Below, piece after piece: positions 34,495 to 61,307 of a stretch of 64,000 nucleotides of DNA. Made by a program: the position numbers and the translations under genes. Every line of letters starts with the position of its first letter. Within the stretch, counting starts at the first letter, position 1. Under the pieces are notes generated by a model. That model worked only from the letters and a program-made list of their open reading frames with translations, ran no database searches and was not told where the DNA came from. The stretch is from Skermanella pratensis (lineage in GTDB: Bacteria > Pseudomonadota > Alphaproteobacteria > Azospirillales > Azospirillaceae): contig NZ_CP030265.1 of NCBI RefSeq assembly GCF_008843145.1, forward strand, positions 5,201,001 to 5,265,000, written 5' to 3'.

Positions 34495-35636
34495 CTTCGG
34501 CTATCCATGAAGGTTTCACCCCCGACGACCTCGCGGTGATCCCCGACGGCTCCGGCAACGACGGCGGTTTCTCCCTGCTGTCGTGGGGCGACGCGATGAC
34601 GTGGGACGAATACGAGCTGCTGGCCGGACGGACCGCGGCGCCGTTCGACGGCCGGTTCGACCAGTGCTTCTACAACTACATCCATCCCAAGCGGCTGCAG
34701 GGGCACTGGCCGGCCCATCAGGTCAAGGACACCCCGATCCGGCTGGCCTTCACCGACTGGGGCGATCCGGACGGCCCGCTGGTGATCTGCGTCGGCGGCA
34801 TCGCCAACACGGCGCGGCGCTGGGACTACCTGGCGCTGGGGCTGTGCGAGGATTTCCACGTGGTCTGCCTGGACTGGCCGGGACGCGGCATGAGCGGCTG
34901 GATGCCGAGCCAGGGCGACTACACGATCGAGACCAACGTGGAGGCGATGGTCCAGCTGCTCGATTACCTGGACTGCCCGCGCGCCAGCATCATCGGCTCC
35001 TCGCTCGGCGGCAGCGTCAGCATGGCCCTGGCGGCCCGGCGGCCCGACCTGGTGGAGCGGCTGGTGCTCAACGACATCGGCCCCTACATGCCGGCCGAGC
35101 GGCGGCGGCGGCGGGCCGAGGCGGTCGCCCGCCACTACGTCTTCCGGCGGCCGGCCGACCTGTTCCGGCGCCTGGGCGCCTCGGCCAAGAACGAGGGGCC
35201 GGTCACCGAGGACGAACTGCTGCACAACACCTTCTTCCAGACCAAGTGGTCCGACGGGCACGGCGGCCGGATCTACCGCCACGATCCGCGCGCGCTCCAG
35301 GCCTATGCCGAGGAGGCCCAGGTCAGCCTGGACCAGCGGGAGGACTGGGCCCGCCTGGAACTACCGGTGCTGGTGCTGCGCGGGATGGTGTCGGACGCGC
35401 TGCTGCCGGAGACGGTCGAGGAGATGACCGCCAAGCCCGACGTGACCGCCGTGTTCGTGCCCAACACCGGGCATACCCCGGCGCTCAGCGACGTCAACCA
35501 GATCCATTTCGTGCGCGAATGGCTGCTCGGGCGCGGCCCGGCGCATCATTTCACCTGCCTCAACCCGCCGGCGACCCCGCGCCACCTGTTCGCCGGCGCG
35601 CCGGTCCCCGCGGCCCAGCCGACCCAGAGGGCGTGA
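34491..35636 (+). CDS. Alpha/beta-hydrolase with long N-terminal extension
   Basis: 381 aa; ATG 34491 overlaps the MFS stop codon, with GCAGGAG upstream. Residues 1-75 are an extension with no recognised motif ([19 protein letters not shown]). The hydrolase part shows [10 protein letters not shown], the nucleophile elbow [12 protein letters not shown] and a histidine in [11 protein letters not shown]; an acidic residue is likely in [10 protein letters not shown]. The oxyanion region has [13 protein letters not shown] rather than HG. Family knowledge points to lactone, ester or C-C bond hydrolysis. Coupling to a transporter and a kinase suggests a shared ligand. Confidence 0.87.
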
Positions 35637-35641
35637 GCGCC

Positions 35642-39205
<3,564 letters not shown>

Positions 39206-47358: not shown

Positions 47359-48972
<1,614 letters not shown>

Positions 48973-48990
48973 GGCTGGCGCTGTCCCAGG

Positions 48991-49036
48991 GACAGAAAGA
49001 AGGCCGGGGAACGTACTCCCCGGCCTTCTTTCTGTC
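48991..49036. terminator. Perfect 19-bp bidirectional terminator between pckA and the defence island
   Basis: GACAGAAAGAAGGCCGGGG (48991-49009) is exactly complementary to 49018-49036 with an 8-base loop. A-rich and T-rich arms (AGAAAGAA, TTCTTTCT) allow use in both directions, so it separates the convergent pckA and helicase-nuclease messages. Confidence 0.9.
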
Positions 49037-49053
49037 GAAGGGCATTGCAGTGG

Positions 49054-52000
49054 TTACGGTGCGTGCTGCGGCACGGTGATCTTCTCGATCAGCTTTCCGA
49101 TGTAGCCGATATCCGCCTTGCTCTGGAAAATGACGTTCTTCTGTTCCAGGTCTGCTAGTGCAGTTCCGCCCGCCCACCAGTCCACATCCTCGATCGCGGT
49201 CGTGGAAAGGATAAACGAATTCAGCACGACGGACGGGTCACCCAGGTGTCGCTCCAGAACCTTGATCCGCTGGTACAATTGAATTTTCGGATCGGTTTCC
49301 CCGCGAAGGTTGCGAATGCCTTTGGGATCGATGAAGCTGACGTACTGGGTATTCCTGGTCACCAGCCACAGAATGAAGTCCGGATAGAAATTGTCGGCGA
49401 TCAGGAACGACACACCGCGACCACGACTGCGGTTCCTGAGAAGGTACAGTTCGGCATCGGCGAATTCCTTCGGGTGCGTGCGATGGTATTCCCGTAGATC
49501 GGTCACGAAATCCCGTTCACCCTCGTTCAGGGGAACGGGTTGCACCTGCACCACGGCACCGGCATAGAGCAGCGGTTGATAGAGATGGCGGTCGAAGCAC
49601 ACCGTGCCCAATACACCCATCTCCACGTCCCGCAGGACGCCCCGGTCGATGGCTTCCCGGGTCTGGCGCAGCATGGAGATCAGGGCGGTTTCGGTCCGAT
49701 CCACGATGATTTTATGAGCCACAAGGAAGTTGGGATCATCGGGTTGCAATGTGCGCAGCTCGACGAAGGGAGCCTCGAACTCCGCCTTCCGGAAGCCATA
49801 CAGCCTTTCGCAATACAGTTTCAGCAGCGTTCCCGCGATTTCCTGCCACTCGTGAACACGCTCCATCTGATCGAACGCAAGCCGGTCCGGAGGGATATAG
49901 AGCGTATACCAGTTGGGATTCTCCAACAGCGGCAGGATGTCGGCAGCCGCCATGTCGAAGTTGAACCAGGATCGCTCGGCCTTGAACTGCTGCAACTCGA
50001 AGTACAGTGCCTCGACATCCAACAGCGCCAGATGATCGCCGGTCAGCACGCCGGTCCTGAGATCGCCGTTCCGTTCGACCTCCGATAGCCCTCGACTCCG
50101 TTCCGCCTGAAGGCGCGGATACCAGTTGAGCGAAACCCGGTTGCGCGGCAGGAAGCCGGCCGGCGGCGGCCCCAGCCGAGGATGCGCGGCGCGGGGATCG
50201 CGCTTGAAATCGATGCCGGCCGGCAAACCGATCAGCTTGAGCGGCTTTTCCGGGAGTTTGGCAACGACGGGGAGCAGGATCTCGAACGGCTCCTCCCCCT
50301 CCCCGACCCCTTCCGCCGCCAGATACTCCTGAAACTGCTTCATGTAGTCGGCGCGGATGCCGAAGATGTTCAGAGTCTCCAGAGTCCCCAGGTAAGCGTT
50401 GTACGGCAGCCCCATTCCCGGAGCGGTATGCCGCTTCAGCCCATGGTCGAACCCCTTCAGCCGGACGCCGCGGCCGAACAACTGGATGGCCCCCGGACCT
50501 TCCCCTTTGGCGAAGTTCATCAGCCCGAGGGTGCTGACCCGCCAACTGCTCCAGCCCTCCGTGAACTTGCGGGACCCGATCAACAGGTTGACCGTAGTAT
50601 CCTGATTGTTGAGCCCTTGGAAAAGCGAACCCGTGAAGGGCCTGTCCTCGACCGTCAGTTCCGGATGTTCCCGGCAGAGCTTGGCGAGTTGCGCTGCATC
50701 GCCGACATTGATGACGCCGAACGGATCGTAATCCCCTAGCCTCAGCGCCAGTTCCCCATCGCTGCCCTTAAGTTCCTCGACATGCAATGAGGCTTGGCGT
50801 TCCGCGTTGAAGACGACCCGCAAGACATCCTGATAGACCGCTTCCGGCGTGAACAGATGGTCCGCGAGGAACGGAAAGGCGTTCGCGAAGACCTCCCGCC
50901 CGGTAGCATCGAGCAGGCCGGGACTGCCGGAGATCAGCCGCCCGATTCGCCGGATATTGGTTGCCTTGTCGCGGTCGCTGACGAAGCGGGCAAGGAACAG
51001 GAGTATGTCCACGACGTCCGAAACTTTGCGCCCCTGCTGCGTCCGAACGGCATTGACGCTGCCGCCGACGAAGATCCACAAGGGGCGTTCGATGAGGAAG
51101 GGCTTCAGCGCCACACGCTGTTCGCCGTAAACCTTCGCCTGCTGGTAGAAGGCGAGGAGGCAGGCTGTCAGATACAGCGTCCGAGTCTCCTCGTTCCTGT
51201 CATCGGCGAGGTTGAGGACTCGGAAATCCTTGCCGTAACCGTCCTCGTAGAAGAACCGGTAGGAATAGTCGAATAGGATCGCCTTGCCGTACTCGTCGGT
51301 CAGGTCCCTCTGGCGGGTCCCCGTAGCGGATTTCACCGCCTGCCCGAACGTTGCGGAATACTCGAAGGTGAAGCCGTCTGCCGCTAGGCGCCGACGCATT
51401 TCCCGCCACTGGTCACCGCCGGCGCCCTGATGTCCCTCATCGACTAGAACCAGGTTGTTGCTCTCGAAGGCGTCGACCGAAACCGTTTTCTCCTTGCCGT
51501 CTTCCCGCAACTTACCGATCTCGATGATCTCGATCGCCTTGCCGGTGAACAGGCTCGCGCCGTCCTTCGTGAACAGGTCCGCTTCCATGCGGGACAGCCG
51601 GAACTCCTGAAGGTGCTGGCGCGACAGGCCCTCGTTCGGCGTGACCAGGATAACCCGGTTGAAATCGCGGCTCCTGTTGTGACGGTCGAGGTAGTGCCGG
51701 AACTGAAGGATGTTGACATGCATCAACAAGGTCTTGCCGGACCCGGTGGCGTTCCAGAAAGCTAGCTTCCGCAGATCGTCGGCCGTCCAGGGCGATAGGC
51801 GGTCACCTGCGCCGACACCCCGGTTGAAAACGTCCAGATAGCGGTTCAGCACCGTCAGCCAGCCATCGGGGTTCTTCAAGTAATTGTCGAGATAGATTTC
51901 GGTGAACAGCAGGGCTAGATACTGGAAATACTTCCATGTGACGGGCCGCTCGCGCCGGCCGTGGATCGCGGCCGTGTGGCGCACGATGTTGCGGTCATAG

Positions 52001-52245
52001 GCCAGAAGGGTTCCGGCATCCAAGACGGCCTTGCCCGGCAGAGCGGCCACCAGCGCGTGGTGCAGACGGGAGACATTGTCTTCCGTCGCCCCCTCCTCGG
52101 CCAATGCCAGCCGTTCGGAAATGTCACGGAAGCGGCGGAAACCCAACATCTCCAGCATCAACCGGTTGAGCACCAGCTTATGGGAAAACGGCACCAGGGA
52201 AGCGGCGGCTGAGGCCGTGCGGGCGGTTTTGGCGCGGGGAGGCAT
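49054..52245 (-). CDS. DEAD/DEAH helicase with C-terminal PD-(D/E)XK-like nuclease (type III Res-like)
   Basis: 1063 aa, last gene of the island. Helicase motifs are complete: Walker A NATGSGKT (165-172), DEGH (269-272), SATFG (motif III) and QLFGRGVRLKG (motif VI). The C-terminal segment DNFYPDFILWL...VSFIDPKG gives a nuclease-like PD-(D/E)XK arrangement with Asp-956, Asp-973 and Lys-975, as in type III restriction Res subunits. It would translocate on and cut DNA. The start lies 3 bp after the stop of the 194-aa gene, so the two are translationally linked. Its GC-rich codon use fits the host better than that of the two preceding genes. Confidence 0.88.
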   Translation of the reverse strand: MPPRAKTARTASAAASLVPFSHKLVLNRLMLEMLGFRRFRDISERLALAEEGATEDNVSRLHHALVAALPGKAVLDAGTLLAYDRNIVRHTAAIHGRRERPVTWKYFQYLALLFTEIYLDNYLKNPDGWLTVLNRYLDVFNRGVGAGDRLSPWTADDLRKLAFWNATGSGKTLLMHVNILQFRHYLDRHNRSRDFNRVILVTPNEGLSRQHLQEFRLSRMEADLFTKDGASLFTGKAIEIIEIGKLREDGKEKTVSVDAFESNNLVLVDEGHQGAGGDQWREMRRRLAADGFTFEYSATFGQAVKSATGTRQRDLTDEYGKAILFDYSYRFFYEDGYGKDFRVLNLADDRNEETRTLYLTACLLAFYQQAKVYGEQRVALKPFLIERPLWIFVGGSVNAVRTQQGRKVSDVVDILLFLARFVSDRDKATNIRRIGRLISGSPGLLDATGREVFANAFPFLADHLFTPEAVYQDVLRVVFNAERQASLHVEELKGSDGELALRLGDYDPFGVINVGDAAQLAKLCREHPELTVEDRPFTGSLFQGLNNQDTTVNLLIGSRKFTEGWSSWRVSTLGLMNFAKGEGPGAIQLFGRGVRLKGFDHGLKRHTAPGMGLPYNAYLGTLETLNIFGIRADYMKQFQEYLAAEGVGEGEEPFEILLPVVAKLPEKPLKLIGLPAGIDFKRDPRAAHPRLGPPPAGFLPRNRVSLNWYPRLQAERSRGLSEVERNGDLRTGVLTGDHLALLDVEALYFELQQFKAERSWFNFDMAAADILPLLENPNWYTLYIPPDRLAFDQMERVHEWQEIAGTLLKLYCERLYGFRKAEFEAPFVELRTLQPDDPNFLVAHKIIVDRTETALISMLRQTREAIDRGVLRDVEMGVLGTVCFDRHLYQPLLYAGAVVQVQPVPLNEGERDFVTDLREYHRTHPKEFADAELYLLRNRSRGRGVSFLIADNFYPDFILWLVTRNTQYVSFIDPKGIRNLRGETDPKIQLYQRIKVLERHLGDPSVVLNSFILSTTAIEDVDWWAGGTALADLEQKNVIFQSKADIGYIGKLIEKITVPQHAP

Positions 52246-52248
52246 GTT

Positions 52249-52833
52249 TCAGGTACTCTCGGACGGCTGCAATTCCGATTGAGCACTACTGGCGCTGGCC
52301 GCGTCGCAGACCGACCATCCTGCCGTAGTGGGAATCTGATCTGGCCGAACCACCATGCACTTCAACTTCAGACCAGATAGGAGTTGGGTCGCCCGCAATG
52401 ACATATCGCTGTGGACTTTCTGAAACAAATTGCTGCCAACACGGTCAGGATGATCGACAAAGACGAGAATTGCAACCAAGGGAATGTTATCCGGCGTACC
52501 AAAGACAACCTTTGTCAAATGGGCACATGAATCATCCGAGAAGCGGTGCGCTGCATACAGGGAGGCCGTCGTATCGAATACTTTGTGAGCAAATTCTAGA
52601 GCTTCCATCTGGTTAGATCTCAATTTCAGCTTATCGTCGTTTCGTGCCTTCCGAAGATCTGACAACTCTATCATTAAAATGCCAGTTTCATAGATAGCGA
52701 CTATATCGACAACTTTCTGATTTGGAATTCGATTGATGAGTTTCTTGAAAAAGCTTTGTTCAGCATCCATCTTGACGGGAAGCCATTCATCAGGCAGTGA
52801 AACCTCCAAGTCTTTTTCTATGATTTTTTTCAT
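52249..52833 (-). CDS. 194-aa protein with possible degenerate nuclease fold, coupled to the ATPase
   Basis: Starts inside the stop region of the ATPase gene (4-bp overlap) and ends just before the helicase-nuclease gene. Visible are NQKVVDIVAIYETGILMIELSDLRK, which has the strand pattern D...E-x-x of PD-(D/E)XK nucleases with the lysine replaced by Ser, and a later NIPLVAILVFVDHPDR strand. No family is recognised with confidence. AT-rich codon use contrasts with the host. The coupling suggests it works with the ATPase, perhaps as nuclease or specificity partner. Confidence 0.7.
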   Translation of the reverse strand: MKKIIEKDLEVSLPDEWLPVKMDAEQSFFKKLINRIPNQKVVDIVAIYETGILMIELSDLRKARNDDKLKLRSNQMEALEFAHKVFDTTASLYAAHRFSDDSCAHLTKVVFGTPDNIPLVAILVFVDHPDRVGSNLFQKVHSDMSLRATQLLSGLKLKCMVVRPDQIPTTAGWSVCDAASASSAQSELQPSEST

Positions 52834-53927
52834 TTTTGCATACCCTCAAAGAATAATTTAGTCATTTCTTCGTCTTGCTGCAATACAGCATCAAGAGAGG
52901 CCAAAGTAGGAATCTCATCAAGATTACCTCCGGCCTGCGCTATCACTCCACTCTCACTCGGAGAAAGCGATAAATACCTTTGGTCTATGATCTCATCGCG
53001 CCTAGCAGTGCTAAGGTGCAACTGTCTCATGAAGAATAGACTATGGCTTGCCATAACAATTTGTACGCCTAAACCTGCCACTGCAGTTACCGCGTCGGCC
53101 AACAACTGCTGAAGCTTAGGATTTAGATGCGCATCCGGCTCATCCCAGAATAAGCTGCAACCAGGATGTAGCAGTCCGTTACTTAACAAATGCCATATGG
53201 TAGCTAACTTGCGATAGCCATCTGCGGCAAGCGTGATCGGCCGTCCACCGATCTGCGGAATTTCACCTCTTTTGAAATTAATGGCACCCATTGTTTGAGC
53301 TAACTGCGCCAGTACTTTGTCCACACCCTCTGCAGCAAATGGATCGCTGGCAAGTTGCTTTGGATCAGCCCGCTGGACACTGGTTTCGGCAAGATCGGCG
53401 GCAGAGGCGTCCATCGACATCGGGTAAGCGCGGTAGATCGGCTGTAGGTCCGGGTACATCCCGAATACATCCAGAATCGGAATGCAAATGGGACTGCGTT
53501 GCGCACCTTCAACTACGCCCGGGGATTGATTTATCCTTACTTTTTTACTGCTGTGAGTAAAAGAGAAGCTCAACGTTCTCCCAGTTGCATAGCTGATGGT
53601 GACAACCGCTTTCGTCTCCCCACCCCTTACCAATGCGCCAAGCGTCGCGCAGCGAAAAACGCTACGCAATTTATCAGCAATTAAGTCGGGAAAATCATGT
53701 TCGGAAACACTGCATTCAGGCACCCCTGGAAGGCTGTCGGGATAAATAGCCTTGGTCGCAGCATAGCAGAGCTTGATCAGATGGCTTTTGCCGGTACTGT
53801 TTTCACCAGCAATGACATTAATCCCCGGTGAGAATTTCTCATCGAATCTTGCAAATACGGTGAAATTCTCCAGAAATAGGCTCGAAATTACCCCTAATGG
53901 ACTAGAAGAGCTTGTTGACCCAACCAT
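52830..53927 (-). CDS. AAA (OLD/RecF-like) ATPase
   Basis: 365 aa from ATG 53927 (TAGGTG site; the longer frame is unlikely). Walker A GENSTGKS at residues 41-48, an ABC-like Walker B in LFWDEPDAHLNP (about 262-273) and the switch histidine in IVMASHSLFFMRQL define the AAA15/OLD-type SMC-like ATPases often found in phage defence. The Q-loop region follows KLCYAATKAIYP. There is no Toprim or HNH domain in the same chain. The gene is strongly AT-rich compared with the chromosome and overlaps the following 194-aa gene. Confidence 0.87.
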   Translation of the reverse strand: MVGSTSSSSPLGVISSLFLENFTVFARFDEKFSPGINVIAGENSTGKSHLIKLCYAATKAIYPDSLPGVPECSVSEHDFPDLIADKLRSVFRCATLGALVRGGETKAVVTISYATGRTLSFSFTHSSKKVRINQSPGVVEGAQRSPICIPILDVFGMYPDLQPIYRAYPMSMDASAADLAETSVQRADPKQLASDPFAAEGVDKVLAQLAQTMGAINFKRGEIPQIGGRPITLAADGYRKLATIWHLLSNGLLHPGCSLFWDEPDAHLNPKLQQLLADAVTAVAGLGVQIVMASHSLFFMRQLHLSTARRDEIIDQRYLSLSPSESGVIAQAGGNLDEIPTLASLDAVLQQDEEMTKLFFEGMQK

Positions 53928-54012
53928 TATATTACACCTACCGGTTCGAATGTTCGAGGTTGCTGGAACGATCGAGATAAAGATCATCCATCCGGGGATC
54001 CTGCTTCAAGGC

Positions 54013-54150
54013 TTATTCCAATGCCGCGATTTCCGTCAGGTCGTTCAGGTCGGTTCCCTGCTCTACCTCGACACCATGCTCGTCCAGTACAAAGGAGAAG
54101 AAAGCCAGCTGAAGCGCGTTCGATTGGCTCAAGCGGGTTGGCGCAATCAC
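54013..54150 (-). CDS. Possible 45-aa protein between methyltransferase and ATPase
   Basis: The GTG at 54150 opens a short frame (MIAPTRLSQSNALQLAFFSF, then VLDEHGVEVEQGTDLNDL and TEIAALE) ending in TAA at 54013-54015. The composition looks like a true soluble alpha/beta protein rather than random frame. The ribosome site is weak, and upstream in-frame codons overlap the end of the methyltransferase gene by a few bases, so the real start may differ. It fills an otherwise empty 245-bp gap of the operon. Confidence 0.4.
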   Translation of the reverse strand: MIAPTRLSQSNALQLAFFSFVLDEHGVEVEQGTDLNDLTEIAALE

Positions 54151-54172
54151 AAAAGTACATCCACTTGGCTTT

Positions 54173-57100
54173 CTACAAGCTTCGCGTGTCGAACATCAGG
54201 CGTTTGAAATCCCGTTCGATCAGGCGGACTTTCCAAAGCGCGCCGTTGTCCTCCTGCCCTCCCTCCGCAATGCCGGGACGCCGAAGGTTTTCCAGGTTGT
54301 TGTCGCCGTTGACCCAGATGGTGTGGAACTCCAAGTCGAGCGTGGAGTAGTGCGATCTGCGGAACCACTCGTCCAGGTCAGCGTTCGATACCTCCGATAG
54401 CGAGCGCCAGAGAATCAGAACCTTGCCGCCGTCGGGCAAGGTGCCGAAGATGGAGAGTACGCCGCGCACGCGCTGGCGCGCGGTCACCTTCAGCCCGAGA
54501 AGATAGTTGAAGGTTTCCGGCAGATCGACTGCCAGCTCCCGCGTCTCGTCGTCGCGGGTGATGCGCAGGGTGTGGCGAAACGGCTCGGCGAATGCGTCGA
54601 TGTTCAGCAGCGACGGGCTACCGGCGATATCGCCGCGCTGCGTATCGAGCAAATAGCGCAGCATATAGCCTTCCCGCATTGCCGGCTGCCGGTCGAACAG
54701 GCCCTGGCGCTCCGGCGAACGTTGGACTTCGAGGTTGTCTAGGGTGTCTTCATAAGATTCAAGGCGAATGTATTTAATAATATGTGAAATTCCATCGCTG
54801 GACAGCGGAACTCCCCCCTTCCAGTTCGAAGAATAAACTGCCTTGCATATCCGAGGTTTGAGCACATAATCGAAATGTTTTTCAACTTCGACCAAAACAA
54901 ACTTTCTTGACCCGCCATCCTTGCGATTCATATTGATAATCACCTGTCCGGTTGTACCGGAGCCACCAAAAAAATCAAGGCAATAGCTATTATCATTTTT
55001 CATGCCTGACACTTGAAGGCAGTCTTCCACTGCAAAGACAGATTTAGGATAGGAGAATACGTTGTACTCACGAAACATTTCTCTTAATGGCGCGGTTCCA
55101 TGCTCGGTTGCAGAATACTTTGCGTCAATCCAAAGGGTAGGAGGTATAATCTCTTGTCCAGGCGAATACTTATAGTAGACAGTATTAATTCCTCCTGGAC
55201 CGGTCTTTGCTAAGTAGCGATCTGGATCATCCACAACCGATGCTGGTTTCCCCCTCCATCGCCTTTCCACCCCATTTTCATCTATCGGTAGAATTACAAC
55301 TTCATCGGCATCTGGCTCCTCCAGAATCTTCCATTCGCGCTTAACTGAACTCCATTCCATAGCCGGAATTCTGACGGATTCTCCTTTTGCATAAATGGGA
55401 TAGAACAACGTTGGCCGGTCATGCCGTTCAGATCCAGATCCTCTCTTCCTAAACAACTCCCACATGTACGCTTTACCATCTTCATCCTGCTCTTTGTAGC
55501 GGCGCGACTGCTCCACACTTCGAGTTAACTTGCCAACAGGCGCAGAGTCTGAGTTCTGTAGGAAAATCGCATACTCGTGTGCTTGACCAAACCCGGTTGG
55601 AGTTGGTCGTCCAGATGGATTCGATCGAATAGGTACAGTAGCAGCCACTCGACCACTAGAGAAAATCTCGGAACACAGGAAAGCTAATTCCTTATACTGG
55701 AAATCGTCTATTGTAATACATGCAATACCGTCTTGGGAAAGCATTAACTTTGACAGAGCTACTCTATCCCTAAGCATTGAAATCCAAGAAGATGATTTGT
55801 AACCATTCTTATAATTTATTGGCTCCGCATCAGTGTTATACGGCGGATCAGCGTATATTGATTGAATTTTATTTCTATATCTTTCCAGAAGCAAATTCAG
55901 CGCCCCGAAATTCTCCCCATGGACCAGTAGCCCGTCGGTCTGCTCGTCCAGATCATCGAATAGCCCCAGCAGTCGATCCTTGAACCCCGGAAAGGTCTCT
56001 TCCGGGAACCATTTGGTATCCAGCACCAGAAAGGGGTTAGCGCACAGGAACTCCACCGTTAGCGGTACGGCATAGGCCACGGTGCCCGCCGGAGCATCGG
56101 CAATCCTGTCGATGGCGAACAGCTTCACCCAATCTTTCCGCTGGTTGTTGTTGCCGGCGATGTCTGCCAGCAGGCCGTCGATCTCCGCGCGTTCCTTTTC
56201 GCTTTTAGCATTTTCGCGGACCGCGAAGATGCGGTCCAGGGTGATACACCACTGAGTTTCGAGGACGAACTTCTTTTTCAACCACAGGACTTTCTGCGCG
56301 TCTTCGATGTGCATCAGGAAATCGATGATCTTGTGCGCCACCCGCCGGATGGCCCTGATGGCGCTGAGCTGCTGTTCCGCCACTGGGGCCGTCGCCTGAT
56401 CGATGTCGTCCAGGTAAAGGACTTCATTCTTGATGTAGAAGTCAAGCTCCCGGCGCAGGAAGCCTCCCAGGTCCTTGTGGATGAAATAGTCAAAGGTCCA
56501 GCGTGCGGTGTATTCCGCCAGATGCTTGCCCAACAGCGTCCGGCCGGCATTGGCCTCCGTCGGCGCCGGGGCGAACAGGGCCGCCCGCCAGCCTTCGATA
56601 TCCTCCCGCGCGTGCAGCGTGGCGATGGCGTCGGCGGAAAGCTCTTCCTGCTTGCGGTCCTGGTCGTCCGGTCGGTACTCGAACAGAATCGTCAGTGTCG
56701 GGACGTCCTCGTCCGCCCTTTCCTGGATCGGCGCGGCCACGTGCAGGTGGAATCGCCGCTCCCTGCCGGTCGGCGCCTTGACGTTGTCTTGTTCCGTGCC
56801 CGCCAAAGCCAGTTCGAACCGAACCCGCCGCCCGTCCCCGGTACGGAAAGCATAGGTCCGGAGATTTTCCGCCGACTTGACGTAGTACTGATCGTGATTC
56901 GCCCAGTGGAGCTTCACCTCCTCCCCCTCGTAGGGGATGGCGTAGACCCCTTCCTTGTAGCGGCGGAGCGACAGGAAATCGCCGTCCTTGTAGTAGCGGC
57001 TGAAGAAGCTGTGCAGATGGCCGTAGACCGCCTCCTCCAGCGCGCCCAGATCGGGAGCCTCCGCCAGCTTCGTCCGCAGGTCCCTCACGCGCGGCGACTG

Positions 57101-57385
57101 GTTCGGATCGATCCCGTGCTCCAGGGCCCCGGCGATGGCTTGGTCGAGTTGGCGTTGCAGTTCCGCCTTGTCGGCGGGCTGGTACTGGCTGAGCGCGTCG
57201 CGTACCTGCGGCAGCAGGTCATTCGCCAAAAAGCCGCGCACCTCTTCGCGCCGGAGGTTGATGATCCGATAGATGCCGAAATCCAGGTCGCCCCGGTCAA
57301 GCTGGAACAGCTCGTCCAGCTTGTCCCGCAACTGCTTCAGGCGCTTGGACTGGCGAAGGGCGGCGTCACTGACGGCGAGGCTCAT
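54173..57385 (-). CDS. Large beta-class DNA adenine methyltransferase
   Basis: 1070 aa. Residues 1-490 form a long N-terminal part (opening with LDFGIYRIINLRREEVRGFL) not present in small type II methylases. Motif IV DPPY is at 513-516 and motif I DFFGGSGTTG at 804-813; the order IV-recognition domain-I is the beta class of N6-adenine (or N4-cytosine) enzymes, as in type III Mod proteins. The C-terminal 190 residues are helical/beta and unassigned. The segment encoding about residues 496-880 is much AT-richer than both sides. Neighbouring helicases suggest a restriction or defence complex. Confidence 0.9.
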   Translation of the reverse strand: MSLAVSDAALRQSKRLKQLRDKLDELFQLDRGDLDFGIYRIINLRREEVRGFLANDLLPQVRDALSQYQPADKAELQRQLDQAIAGALEHGIDPNQSPRVRDLRTKLAEAPDLGALEEAVYGHLHSFFSRYYKDGDFLSLRRYKEGVYAIPYEGEEVKLHWANHDQYYVKSAENLRTYAFRTGDGRRVRFELALAGTEQDNVKAPTGRERRFHLHVAAPIQERADEDVPTLTILFEYRPDDQDRKQEELSADAIATLHAREDIEGWRAALFAPAPTEANAGRTLLGKHLAEYTARWTFDYFIHKDLGGFLRRELDFYIKNEVLYLDDIDQATAPVAEQQLSAIRAIRRVAHKIIDFLMHIEDAQKVLWLKKKFVLETQWCITLDRIFAVRENAKSEKERAEIDGLLADIAGNNNQRKDWVKLFAIDRIADAPAGTVAYAVPLTVEFLCANPFLVLDTKWFPEETFPGFKDRLLGLFDDLDEQTDGLLVHGENFGALNLLLERYRNKIQSIYADPPYNTDAEPINYKNGYKSSSWISMLRDRVALSKLMLSQDGIACITIDDFQYKELAFLCSEIFSSGRVAATVPIRSNPSGRPTPTGFGQAHEYAIFLQNSDSAPVGKLTRSVEQSRRYKEQDEDGKAYMWELFRKRGSGSERHDRPTLFYPIYAKGESVRIPAMEWSSVKREWKILEEPDADEVVILPIDENGVERRWRGKPASVVDDPDRYLAKTGPGGINTVYYKYSPGQEIIPPTLWIDAKYSATEHGTAPLREMFREYNVFSYPKSVFAVEDCLQVSGMKNDNSYCLDFFGGSGTTGQVIINMNRKDGGSRKFVLVEVEKHFDYVLKPRICKAVYSSNWKGGVPLSSDGISHIIKYIRLESYEDTLDNLEVQRSPERQGLFDRQPAMREGYMLRYLLDTQRGDIAGSPSLLNIDAFAEPFRHTLRITRDDETRELAVDLPETFNYLLGLKVTARQRVRGVLSIFGTLPDGGKVLILWRSLSEVSNADLDEWFRRSHYSTLDLEFHTIWVNGDNNLENLRRPGIAEGGQEDNGALWKVRLIERDFKRLMFDTRSL

Positions 57386-57480
57386 GTCGGACTAGTACTC
57401 TGCTGAACCGAAACGGGTCCGCGCAAGGCGGACTCGCTGGATAGCATGGCTCTTCGATCCAGGGAAGCGTACGGCTTGGC

Positions 57481-57861
57481 CTATGGGAACAGCGTCAGCC
57501 ATTCCGGCGACTCACGAGCCTCGGGGGTATCCTCGGCCGGCCATGCATAAGCATTTGGAAGCTGATCGTCGTCGGCGTCCAACTGCGTTATGATGGCACT
57601 TCCTTTGGAAAGATCGAGAGACATCCATACGAAGGTTTGAACTTGAGCGAGAGTCACTCCGTCACTTGCCTCTAACTTCAGAGTTGTCCTTGGTGGACTC
57701 GGCATCGGTTTCGGTTCGCCAATCCCTCTTAGGGCTTCTGCCATGGACATATTGCTGCTGGACATCTGTTCTAATCCCAGTTCAGTCACCTCGCTTAATA
57801 CTTCATTATCCCTAATATACTCGACTGGATTGTGGAAGGTGATCACAAATCTCTTAGACAT
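57481..57861 (-). CDS. 126-aa island protein of unknown function
   Basis: Lies between the SNF2 helicase and methyltransferase genes, with AAAGG ribosome site. The sequence starts MSKRFVITFHNPVEYIRDN and has a Pro-rich middle (GEPKPMPSPPRTTLKLEAS) and acidic end; no domain is recognised. AT-rich flanks (57862-58018) suggest a promoter or a border of a transferred segment. Whether it belongs to the defence system or is a passenger is unknown. Confidence 0.6.
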   Translation of the reverse strand: MSKRFVITFHNPVEYIRDNEVLSEVTELGLEQMSSSNMSMAEALRGIGEPKPMPSPPRTTLKLEASDGVTLAQVQTFVWMSLDLSKGSAIITQLDADDDQLPNAYAWPAEDTPEARESPEWLTLFP

Positions 57862-58018
57862 ATTTTACCTTTCCGGAGCGGGATTATCGAAATGAAACAT
57901 GCCTTACAATTAATTCAGCTACACGTTCTGTACGCACTCGCGATAGATTAAGTTACCGCATAAGATATGGTAACGGGCTTTCGTTGATGCAAGCTATCAG
58001 GTTTGGACTCAATCTCAT

Positions 58019-60880
58019 TCACCTTATCTCCCACTGGATCGTGAACAGCCGCTCCTCCGTCACCTGCCGACGTATCTGAACTTCCAGCGCGGCGATCAGG
58101 CGGTCGCGCTCGGCGATGATCTCATCCTCCACGTCGAAGATGCGTTGCCGTAAGCGGCGCTTGCTTCGCTCAAGCTCCTGAATACGGTTCTGGATCTCCA
58201 TCTGCTCCGTCGGGGCTGTCGTCTGGCGAGCTTGGCGGGTCAGGGCCTTGACCTGATTCTTCACGTCGGCCAACTCCTTCTCCGCCGCGTGCAGCTTGTC
58301 GTCGGCCCAGGCTTCAAGACGGGACCGCTGTTCGTCGAAATGCCTGCGGTTGCGGGCAGCGGCCTCTTCCGCCACGGTGTCCAGGGCTTTCCGTTCCGTC
58401 TCCTCGAAGATATGCCGGATGACCTCATGCATGGGCGGAGCCTGCCCGGACCATGTGGCATCGCACAGCAACAGCTTCTCGCACATTTCCTGGTCCAAAG
58501 GACGCTGCTTGTCGTCGATCGCGCCGAAGACCAGGAACTCCTCCCGCTCGAAGCTGTCCAGCGTCAGCTTGTGCAGCGACAGCCATCCCTTCCGGCGCAT
58601 CAGGGGCTCAAGGACGGAAATCCGCGCGGGATGGTCGGAAAGGTGAAAGGTGACCTTGGCCCCGTCGGTCACGGGCAGGGCGCGCCCCTGCTCCAGGATC
58701 CAGGCTCCCAAAGGATGATTCAGCCGGAAGGGAATGCCGGATGCTTCCGCTCCCTGATCCCTGGTCATCAGGTGGTAGGAGCCCGGCCGGGCTTCCGGCA
58801 CCGGCGAATCGGCCAGCCGGAAGACGGTGCGGGAGTCCTCGAACTCGGCCCGCCCCACGAGCATGTGGCGCGTCAGCTTCCAGAACAGCCGCGCGGTGCG
58901 GTCGAGATGGATCCGGGCGTCGTCCAGGCTCAGGCGCAATCGATTGTGGACATCCTCGTCGAAATGGGCCAGCAGGTTCAACCGGGTGTCGCTGACGCGC
59001 GCCCGGATCGCCTCGTCCATCTCCGCCCGCAGCTTCGCGAAAGCCGAGTCGATCTCCGCTTCGGTCCGGCACTCCTGATGGATGCGCAGGATGCGCTTTT
59101 CGAAATCGATGCCCGACTCGATGGAGCCGAGCACTTCGTCCGACGCGCCGAACACGCCCTTGAACAGCTTGAACTTCTCTTCCAGAAGCTCCAGCACCCG
59201 CCGGTCGGCGGCGTTGCGCTGATTGAGGAAGTTGATCACCACGACATCGTGCTGCTGGCCGTAGCGGTGGCAGCGGCCGATCCGCTGCTCGATCCGCTGG
59301 GGGTTCCAGGGCAGGTCATAGTTGATGACCAGGGAACAGAACTGAAGGTTCACGCCTTCCGCCGCCGCCTCGGTAGCGATCATGATCTCCGCCTCGTCGC
59401 GGAACGCCTCGACCAACGCCATCCGCATGTCCACCGGGTGCGAGCCGGTCACCCGTCCGGTCTCCCGGTTGCGGCGCATCCAGTCGCTGAGCAGGGCTTG
59501 GGATTCAGGATCGGCATTGTTGCCGTTGAACATGACGACTCGGCCTGAGAAGCCAGCCTCGCTCAGGATGGCGCGGAGGAACTCCTGGGTGCGGCGCGAC
59601 TCCGTGAAGATAAGCGCCTTGCGCTTGGCGCCTAACTTCGCCATCTGACGGAACCCGATCTCCAGCGCCTTCAGAAGGGCATCCGCCTTGCTGTCGCGGT
59701 CGATCGAGCGGGCCAGCGACGCCAACTCGTCCAGAACCATGATTTCCGCCTCGAGCTGCCGCCCATCTGGAGCGGCCGTGCCGGACGGCGAATCCTCATC
59801 CGGCGGGTCCGGGGTTTGGTCCAAATAGTCCGGATCAATGTCTTCGCTGTCGGCGAGAACGTCCAGAAGGTCCTGGTCCGATGGGCGCCTCGCCCGCAGC
59901 CGTTCCCGCAGGGTATCAAGGGTACTCGCGATGGCACGGGACGACGACGCCAGAAGCTTGTAAAGCACCAAGGTCGTCAGTTGCCTCTGCGCGGCGGGGA
60001 CGGCGAAGGAAGTCTCGCGCAACAGGAAGCGGGAGACGCTCTCATACAGGGTCTGCTCGGCGTCAGACGGCATGAAGGGAATCGTCAGGGCCTGACGATC
60101 CGTGAACCTGATGTATTCCTGGACTTCCGAGCGCAGGGTCCGCTTGCAAAACGACATCAGCCGGCCGCGCAGGATCTCCAGGTCCGAGTCCTTACCCATG
60201 AATTGTGAGCGGAAGCTGGCGGCGTCGCCGAACAGGTGTTCGTCGATCAGCGTGCTCAGCCCATAAAGCTCTATCAGGGAGTTCTGAAGCGGAGTCGCCG
60301 TCAGCAGAACTTTACGGCGCATCGTCAGGGCCTGCCTGATGCGCTGGCCGATGACGTTTCCGCTCTTGTAGACATTACGCAGTTTATGAGCCTCATCAAT
60401 CACTGCGAGGTCCCAGGGAATTCGGTAAAGCGATTCGTGGATCTTGGCCGCGAAATTGTACGAGACGATGATGACCGCATCGGCATGTCCCAGTGGGTCG
60501 GCGTTCGTCGCCTGCTGCGCCCTCGCATGGGAGCGGGCATCCATTACCCGGGTCGGCAGGCCGAACTTCTCCTCCAACTCGGAAGCCCATTGCTTGCGAA
60601 GGGAAGCCGGACATACCACCAGCAGCCGGCGCCGCCTCTCCGCCCAGAACTGGCAGAGGAGGACGCCCGCTTCGATGGTCTTGCCCAAACCAACCTCGTC
60701 GGCCAGCAGGACGCCTTTGGCGGCCGGAGACCGCAGCGCGAAAAGCGCCGCATCGATCTGGTGGGGGTTGAGATCGACATGGGCATCGAAAAGGGACTGG
60801 GCCAGCCGGCCGACGCCGTCGGCGGCGCGCAGCCGGGTCAATTCATGGGCGAAATAGCAGGCCTGGATATCCGTGATCAT
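58019..60880 (-). CDS. SNF2/RapA-type helicase
   Basis: 953 aa, first gene of the island. Walker A DEVGLGKT (catalytic Lys-67), DEAH at 162-165, TATPLQNS (motif III), then the second RecA lobe with FTESRRTQEFL, and RIEQRIGRCHRYGQ (motif VI). An acidic insertion (about 340-375, SEDIDPDYLDQTPDPPDEDS) separates lobes. The last 100 residues are a long coiled coil. This architecture resembles DrmD-like and RapA-like DNA translocases in defence loci. It moves along duplex DNA and may remodel phage DNA or recruit the methylase. Confidence 0.92.
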   Translation of the reverse strand: MITDIQACYFAHELTRLRAADGVGRLAQSLFDAHVDLNPHQIDAALFALRSPAAKGVLLADEVGLGKTIEAGVLLCQFWAERRRRLLVVCPASLRKQWASELEEKFGLPTRVMDARSHARAQQATNADPLGHADAVIIVSYNFAAKIHESLYRIPWDLAVIDEAHKLRNVYKSGNVIGQRIRQALTMRRKVLLTATPLQNSLIELYGLSTLIDEHLFGDAASFRSQFMGKDSDLEILRGRLMSFCKRTLRSEVQEYIRFTDRQALTIPFMPSDAEQTLYESVSRFLLRETSFAVPAAQRQLTTLVLYKLLASSSRAIASTLDTLRERLRARRPSDQDLLDVLADSEDIDPDYLDQTPDPPDEDSPSGTAAPDGRQLEAEIMVLDELASLARSIDRDSKADALLKALEIGFRQMAKLGAKRKALIFTESRRTQEFLRAILSEAGFSGRVVMFNGNNADPESQALLSDWMRRNRETGRVTGSHPVDMRMALVEAFRDEAEIMIATEAAAEGVNLQFCSLVINYDLPWNPQRIEQRIGRCHRYGQQHDVVVINFLNQRNAADRRVLELLEEKFKLFKGVFGASDEVLGSIESGIDFEKRILRIHQECRTEAEIDSAFAKLRAEMDEAIRARVSDTRLNLLAHFDEDVHNRLRLSLDDARIHLDRTARLFWKLTRHMLVGRAEFEDSRTVFRLADSPVPEARPGSYHLMTRDQGAEASGIPFRLNHPLGAWILEQGRALPVTDGAKVTFHLSDHPARISVLEPLMRRKGWLSLHKLTLDSFEREEFLVFGAIDDKQRPLDQEMCEKLLLCDATWSGQAPPMHEVIRHIFEETERKALDTVAEEAAARNRRHFDEQRSRLEAWADDKLHAAEKELADVKNQVKALTRQARQTTAPTEQMEIQNRIQELERSKRRLRQRIFDVEDEIIAERDRLIAALEVQIRRQVTEERLFTIQWEIR

Positions 60881-61085
60881 GGAGAGACGCTATACAGCAG
60901 CGGAGGGAATTGGTGAACATGCCTGCTTGAGCATGCAGATCGCACAGAGGCCGAAATGGGGCCAAGGCGACGCTTGCAGAGCTCTGCGGCGGACGCCATC
61001 GACTGGCTTTCGATAACGTCCTGTGACTCTAGTCTAAGGAGCATCTTCGTGTAATGACGCCGGCCGAATGCCTGGAGCTTTTGCC

Positions 61086-61307
61086 ATGAGCACGCTGACG
61101 ATCCGATTGACCGACGACACCGCCGAACGGCTGGAGGCGCTTGCCCGCAGCCGTGGACTCAGCGTGAACGGCTTGATCGAGGAGATGAGCGTCCAGGCGC
61201 TGGCGGCCTGGGACGCGGAACGCCGTTTCAGATCGATGGCAGCCGAAGGAGATACCGCCCAGGCTCTTTCGATCCTGGAGCGGCTTGATCGTCAGTCCGC
61301 CGAATAG
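61086..61307 (+). CDS. Ribbon-helix-helix antitoxin-like protein without visible toxin
   Basis: 73 aa from ATG 61086. The first 45 residues are an RHH fold (STLTIRLTDDTAERLEALARSRGLSVNGLIEEMSVQAL), as in CopG/ParD-type antitoxins and regulators. The tail is helical. No toxin gene is adjacent: a lipoprotein gene follows. It may regulate another locus or be the survivor of a toxin-antitoxin pair. Confidence 0.75.
   Translation: MSTLTIRLTDDTAERLEALARSRGLSVNGLIEEMSVQALAAWDAERRFRSMAAEGDTAQALSILERLDRQSAE

Follow-up and report, generated by a model that had tools for sequence, protein, structure and literature searches.

The block of minus-strand genes analysed here is probably a Type III restriction-modification operon from the Eco86II/BspHIV group, acquired recently and with an HEC-02 pair, a second defence module, in the junction between mod and res. 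Its core is ordinary and the nesting unusual; most of the interest lies in two family-wide patterns, one in the centre of mod and the other at the mod-res junction. The original prediction, made from the letters of the window (the whole 64,000-nucleotide stretch that was analysed), had described six or seven minus-strand genes in one block, and the ORF listing of the window indeed holds seven such frames there. The features are as follows:

48980..61046, no strand: island, apparently acquired, empty site in relatives (blastn against four same-genus genomes)
49054..52245, minus strand: Res, SF2 helicase with a C-terminal PD-(D/E)XK motif; 38% identity to NCTC86 Res, PADLOC REase_III E 7.8e-208
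52249..52833, minus strand: the 194-aa member of the embedded pair, PD-(D/E)XK-like; small HEC-02A model of PADLOC E 1.2e-9, Pfam Hjc
52830..53987, minus strand: OLD-like ATPase of the embedded pair; PADLOC HEC-02A E 3.1e-56, Walker A, Walker B and H-loop
54013..54150, minus strand: 45-aa ORF, probably left over from the C-terminus of an older HEC-02-type ATPase; PADLOC HEC-02B positions 294-329, E 0.0014
54173..57385, minus strand: Mod, beta-class methyltransferase, 1070 aa; 35% identity to NCTC86 Mod, PADLOC MTase_III E 3.6e-202
54740..55897, minus strand: low-GC cassette within mod, aa 497-882, catalytic and recognition domain; GC3 0.39 versus 0.82 outside
57481..57861, minus strand: orphan gene of 126 aa in the helicase-mod junction, without family match
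58019..60880, minus strand: SNF2-family helicase, 5' of mod; 48% identity end to end to the NCTC86 helicase, PADLOC DrmD E 5.7e-198

The last three genes are packed as tightly as had been described, with a 4-bp overlap between the ATPase and 194-aa genes and a 3-bp gap between the latter and res. The unusual composition ascribed to the block is real and uneven: GC3 runs from 0.29-0.49 in central Mod (aa 501-900, taken in 100-aa blocks) through 0.47-0.54 in the ATPase, 194-aa and 126-aa genes to 0.78-0.82 in Res and the SNF2 helicase, and the rest of the window, outside 49-61 kb, has a GC of 0.68. Well away from the block, positions 34583-39205 encode an ordinary signalling protein, a hybrid sensor kinase of 1540 aa in which PAS, GAF, receiver and Hpt domains are combined.

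The suspicion of a defence island was borne out in the form of a restriction-type locus whose core, on comparison of its proteins, belongs to a kind already described, the Eco86II-like Type III restriction-modification operons with an extra helicase. An SNF2-Mod-Res locus was found in E. coli NCTC86 (in one among four 49-kb stretches), and the helicase, Mod and Res of the window align with its proteins over their full lengths, with gene order conserved, at 48, 35 and 38% identity, respectively. NCTC86 is the source strain of Eco86II, and because it is credited with one putative Type III system, of helicase-mod-res architecture (PMC8259958), we infer that the locus is Eco86II. The same study (Murray et al. 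2021, PMC8259958) assigns Eco86II and BspHIV to an m4C Type III group with an extra helicase-like ATPase 5' of mod, finds such an ATPase near Mod and Res in >500 genomes, reports that Mod methylates and that Res cleaves about 25 bp from its site, and records the absence of the Eco86II helicase from the detected components of an enzyme preparation active in vitro. In our searches, the Mod and Res pair, usually with a helicase gene nearby, was found on plasmids of Bacteroidota, Pseudomonadota, Bacillota, Thermotogota and halophilic archaea; in Conchiformibius the helicase gene lies 3' of res. Genome contigs held at least 550 relatives of Res, of which the best 80 by similarity to Res were kept, and the family was present at E <= 1e-80 in 6 of 398 genomes of the window's own phylum.

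All the motifs on which the original prediction rested were located. The SNF2 helicase has GLGKT at 64 and DEAH at 162. In Mod, which matches Pfam N6_N4_Mtase, DPPY at 513 precedes FGGSG at 806, the beta-class order (motif IV before I); its three matches among solved structures are Mbo45V (E 1.2e-25), an adenine-specific Mod (E 4.5e-22) and the EcoP15I Mod (E 1.9e-16), and the best-matching stretches lie after residue 468. Res carries GSGKT at 168, DEGH at 269 and, in keeping with the Res-like nuclease that had been proposed, PD at 955 and D-x-K at 973-975; where this PD-(D/E)XK end was aligned in ten sequences, the last lysine is a histidine in three. The helicase position may itself be exchangeable, as suggested by loci from Priestia (L022) and Athalassotoga (L026) that have a different helicase gene upstream of Mod-Res (15-16% identity in the alignment), to both of which the SNF2 profile is blind.

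The block had been likened to the Hma category of defence systems, and helicase, methylase and ATPase do occur together here, the helicase matching HmaA at E 7.5e-54. This likeness was not upheld: DrmD is by far the better fit for the helicase (E 5.7e-198), Mod belongs to the amino-methyltransferases of the beta class, whereas HmaB is described in PMC8565338 as an m5C methylase, and the ATPase matches AAA_21/OLD-like models in Pfam with no match to DUF499, the ATPase type given for HmaC in PMC12839542. We consider an Hma system or Hma variant highly improbable. Much the same holds for a reduced DISARM or BREX system, which would account for the matches of the helicase to the DrmD and BrxH models and is equally hard to credit. 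The misfit noted at the outset was confirmed, in that DrmB, DrmC, PglZ and BrxC are absent among the matches listed for the proteins of the block, where DrmA appears only as a cross-match of the helicase. Although DrmD models are the closest to this helicase in PADLOC, its NCBIfam NF038318 score of 657.6 bits falls under the cut-off of 950.

Comparison with relatives suggests that the Eco86II-like operon arrived recently. The 12-kb island is absent from all four same-genus genomes fetched: blastn alignments, whose flanking pieces have 81-96% identity, end at 48970-49032 and restart at 61045-61054 (61343 in the fourth genome). In the relatives search, Res was found in one of 29 genomes, the own genome. 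The island is flanked by pckA (PEPCK) and by a short Arc/CopG-like gene near infC (PHROG Arc-like repressor, E 0.0076), and the 130-bp stretches at its ends share no direct repeats of 8 bases or more. At the empty site of two relatives (L199 and L200) there is the start of a reading frame, which in L200 runs into Arc/CopG-like sequence (compare positions 61083-61307 of the window); in the window, the island stands in place of the part of that frame seen in relatives. To the eye, the empty-site frame looks PIN-like. The 126-aa protein of the helicase-mod junction had no Pfam match over the cut-off, none in PADLOC, NCBIfam or PHROG and none in 72,556 plasmids; in 299 genomes, the search returned the protein itself and one match at E 2.8e-4 with two stops.

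By their matches, the ATPase and the 194-aa protein would be the PADLOC candidate pair HEC-02 (HEC meaning Hma-embedded candidate, PMC12988326), a second ATPase-nuclease module inside the core operon. Both proteins, encoded by adjacent genes, match HEC-02 models (E 3.1e-56 and 1.2e-9). The motifs of the ATPase are intact (Walker A at 61, DEPDAH at 282, ASHS at 313); compared by sequence with solved structures, it gave no match at E <= 0.01. Its true start may lie inside the annotated ORF, since relatives align only from residue 34. The family is present in 30 of 200 sampled genomes of the phylum, the own genome counted, and 32 loci, 28 from genomes and 4 from plasmids, were examined. In 22 of these a same-strand ORF of 112-197 aa overlaps by exactly 4 bp, like in the window; an ORF of partner size abuts or otherwise overlaps in three, and seven have no ORF of that size. 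On a Sphingobium plasmid (L171, 5414-18780) the HEC-02 pair lies amid large genes, followed by genes annotated as alkaline phosphatase and Lon protease; from the gene names we take these surroundings to be BREX-like.

One could envision that all six genes form a single machine, with the ATPase and the 194-aa protein as subunits that load the Res nuclease or regulate it, and the way in which the genes overlap and abut on one strand would fit such an arrangement. The distribution of the parts makes this quite improbable, as numerous core loci lack any gene between mod and res, others hold unrelated cargo in the same junction, and none of the 32 other ATPase loci has a core gene among its listed neighbours (some contigs end close by). 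The original prediction looked for a six-gene set repeated in other genomes and for conserved co-occurrence of its members; the core does recur, in many genomes, and matches the named Eco86II group, but the full set was found in the window only, and where the ATPase-nuclease pair occurs in other places, no core gene is among its listed neighbours. HEC-02 within this core was seen in a single case, so this particular pairing could be accidental.

The 194-aa protein is a weakly predicted PD-(D/E)XK-like nuclease. Its Pfam Hjc match lies right at the cut-off (E 2.9e-4). The consensus of the small partners, E..D..VD..ExK..K, is PD-(D/E)XK-like, with E56 and K84 as the only invariant columns among 24 proteins. 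Since the ExK lysine is replaced by Ser58 in the window and by Arg or Thr in some relatives, K84 may supply the missing lysine. Foldseek with the AlphaFold model (pLDDT 79.5) gave no match at E <= 0.001; its weak, low-TM rows include MUS81, XPF, HamA, McrC and Hjc, mixed with unrelated folds (phosphorylase, thymidylate kinase). The 194-aa protein had no plasmid match, and a single-sequence scan of viral contigs returned no relative of it or of the ATPase.

Between mod and the annotated start of the ATPase gene lie 185 bp that contain a 45-aa frame; in cargo-free relatives there is almost nothing in that place. The original prediction had listed the frame as a possible protein. We dropped this in favour of a probable remnant of the C-terminus of an older HEC-02-type ATPase: the HMM score of 6.6 bits was reached by 2 of 5000 shuffles and is the best among 527 short open frames in the window, the counterpoint being that it is just 6.6 bits. 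Such a scar of earlier cargo would imply cargo turnover at this junction. It might also be taken, together with the low GC of the pair and the serine in place of the ExK lysine, as a sign of a pair that is decaying or acts as a selfish addiction module and is retained through its position, not through a role in defence. We think this rather unlikely given that Walker A, Walker B and the H-loop are intact, that both frames are open with E56 and K84 retained, and that the ExK lysine is missing in some other family members too (Arg or Thr).

Apart from the window, the mod-res junction appears from gene layouts to be a recurrent docking site for cargo genes, many of them from known defence families. 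The junction sample comprised 74 loci with Mod upstream of Res; its genome loci were the best 80 of 550, picked by Res similarity, so that the cargo frequency is not a random-sample estimate. L042 and L045 were dropped as identical to L030 in layout and coordinates, and 13 of the 89 loci L019-L107 were dropped for lack of a Mod upstream of Res by profile, which reflects cut contigs or misses (L019 and L022, both with an annotated Mod, are misses). Cargo was defined as a same-strand ORF of at least 90 aa between mod and res; genes were called mechanically, and some short cargo ORFs (L036, L079 and L094, for example) are possibly not genes. On this basis 45 of the 74 loci lack cargo, with a mod-res gap of -20 to +12 bp in 43 of them, and 29 contain a cargo ORF, often abutting both sides. 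At least one cargo protein was scanned against PADLOC for 22 of the 29; L065, L066, L068 and L090 were joined to a scanned protein by phmmer clustering only, and the cargo of L046, L079 and L094 was neither scanned nor clustered.

Among the 22 scanned loci, 15 have cargo with a PADLOC match at E <= 1e-20: HEC-01 in L020, L030, L043, L083 and L107, HEC-03 in L051, HEC-04-like in L054 and L072, SoFic in L033, L085 and L099, PDC-S02 in L089, PDC-S05/RhuM in L040, Ppl in L098 and PD-Lambda-2-like in L032. The seven below the threshold include L031 and L102 (Schlafen-type by Pfam) and L037 (DUF3800); cargo of L036, L048, L056 and L061 had no PADLOC match. Control genes, a small set for which ten of these loci each gave the first ORF of at least 150 aa downstream of Res, yielded two matches, both with E below 1e-20 (15/22 vs 2/10, Fisher p 0.02). 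Cargo is held by three of six own-phylum genomes with the Res family: HEC-02 in the window, a RhuM-type protein in G138 and HEC-01-type proteins in G053, the last two typed by similarity to scanned cargo. Viral loci differ. Of 27 with Res, 19 have an adjoining Mod and none of the 19 a gene in between, which speaks against a general cargo pattern there.

Three modules are seen in one core locus of a Saprospiraceae MAG (L083, 1250-10008), with a PDC-S02-type gene, identified by clustering, before mod, and an HEC-01 pair plus a 935-aa Ppl-type protein, so labelled by its clustering with L098, between mod and res.

The principle of embedding is already known and rests on BREX and Type I examples. 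PMC12839542 describes OLD-ABC and PD-(D/E)XK backup effectors embedded in BREX and related systems, and PMC12255303 a toxin-antitoxin system within a Type I system. In the published literature searched, we found no statement of embedding for the Eco86II-type Type III group.

The second family-wide pattern concerns Mod. On composition, the window Mod is a mosaic with a foreign catalytic and recognition cassette. Its GC3 falls from 0.82 to 0.39 within aa 497-882; placing these breakpoints gains 98.6 in log-likelihood, against at most 9.5 in 40 shuffles, and the same fit gains 5.4 for Res and 8.8 for SNF2. The low-GC cassette spans motifs IV and I, and because the predicted structure (pLDDT 78.5) places the strands and helices round these motifs between about 485 and 851, the block corresponds roughly to the catalytic and recognition domain. 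Across 59 Mod relatives, GC3 is lower in the block than at the ends in 55, with a drop greater than 0.1 in 47, and identity to the window Mod is lower in the centre than at both ends in 53; in the Res control, under the same fractional split, the difference is negative in 34 of 85 and goes beyond -0.1 in none. A Hymenobacter plasmid Mod has the same GC3 profile (0.86/0.40/0.89) and a central block 54% identical to that of the window, and the two enzymes may have a common target.

In E. coli, six complete loci have Mods that agree closely at both termini (98-100% in the N-terminal and 96-100% in the C-terminal part); between breaks near aa 380 and 901-905 lie four different central cassettes of 24-33% mutual identity, one of which is common to three loci. 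Helicase and Res, where compared, in three of the six loci, are 98.5-99.8% identical. Both DPPY and FxGSG belong to the exchanged part in five loci; in the sixth, L172, the pattern search found the second motif only. Two further E. coli loci with incomplete or split Mods, L242 and L243, were left out of this comparison. The Mod of an E. coli plasmid locus (L021) had a match, mostly partial, in 165 of 5426 E. coli genomes. In E. coli EA2 (L243, 5001-8105) the annotation splits an Eco86II-type Mod into two genes, apparently a case of natural inactivation.

How might the operon work? Mod would methylate one strand of a short asymmetric site, presumably as m4C, the modification of characterised relatives, and Res would cleave DNA that lacks the modification, once sites have communicated in an ATP-driven manner. 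The conserved helicase could aid in vivo by remodelling DNA or by translocation. Presumably made from the same message as mod and res, the embedded pair would supply a sensor, the ATPase, and a nuclease effector, the small partner. This layer might serve as a PARIS-like backup, triggered by failure or inhibition of restriction, with death or arrest of the cell as the outcome. The cassette probably replaced the specificity of Mod and kept the rest of the protein.

A tentative generalization, possible rather than probable, is that Eco86II-type systems are a defence chassis, with a Mod scaffold that accepts swappable cassettes and junctions that dock backup modules against anti-restriction proteins. 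Should this be true, one recombination could change the target, and possibly the methylated base, and leave Res and helicase unchanged. Helicase-bearing Type III restriction, embedded backup effectors and mod cassette exchange come together in a single type of locus, frequent enough for testing. E. coli loci that are nearly identical, with the Mod cassette as the main difference, amount to a natural experiment on Type III specificity change, gene junctions are a place to seek further defence modules, and the role of the extra helicase, a question dating from 2021, becomes easier to address.

Set beside known systems, the locus is closest to Eco86II/BspHIV in the helicase-mod-res order, in the end-to-end homology of all three proteins to the NCTC86 locus, in motif IV preceding motif I in Mod and in the PD-(D/E)XK motif at the Res end; it departs from them in having extra genes in both junctions and a foreign central mod cassette. 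The embedded pair has the HEC-02 gene order and the 4-bp overlap seen in 22 of 32 family loci, but sits in a Type III core, with a small protein whose match is weak and whose ExK lysine is replaced. Like PARIS (AriA-AriB) and the OLD-ABC effectors of BREX (PMC12839542), it places an OLD-type ATPase and a partner inside a modification-based system; the partner here is PD-(D/E)XK-like, unlike the TOPRIM protein AriB of PARIS, and the 194-aa protein has no TOPRIM match in Pfam or PADLOC. Finally, the mosaic Mod recalls the allele exchange of modA, in which a central mod block is swapped between conserved ends. In modA (PMC3311624), the conserved ends hold DPPY and FxGxG and the recognition domain alone varies, whereas in the operon described here both motifs lie within the exchanged block.
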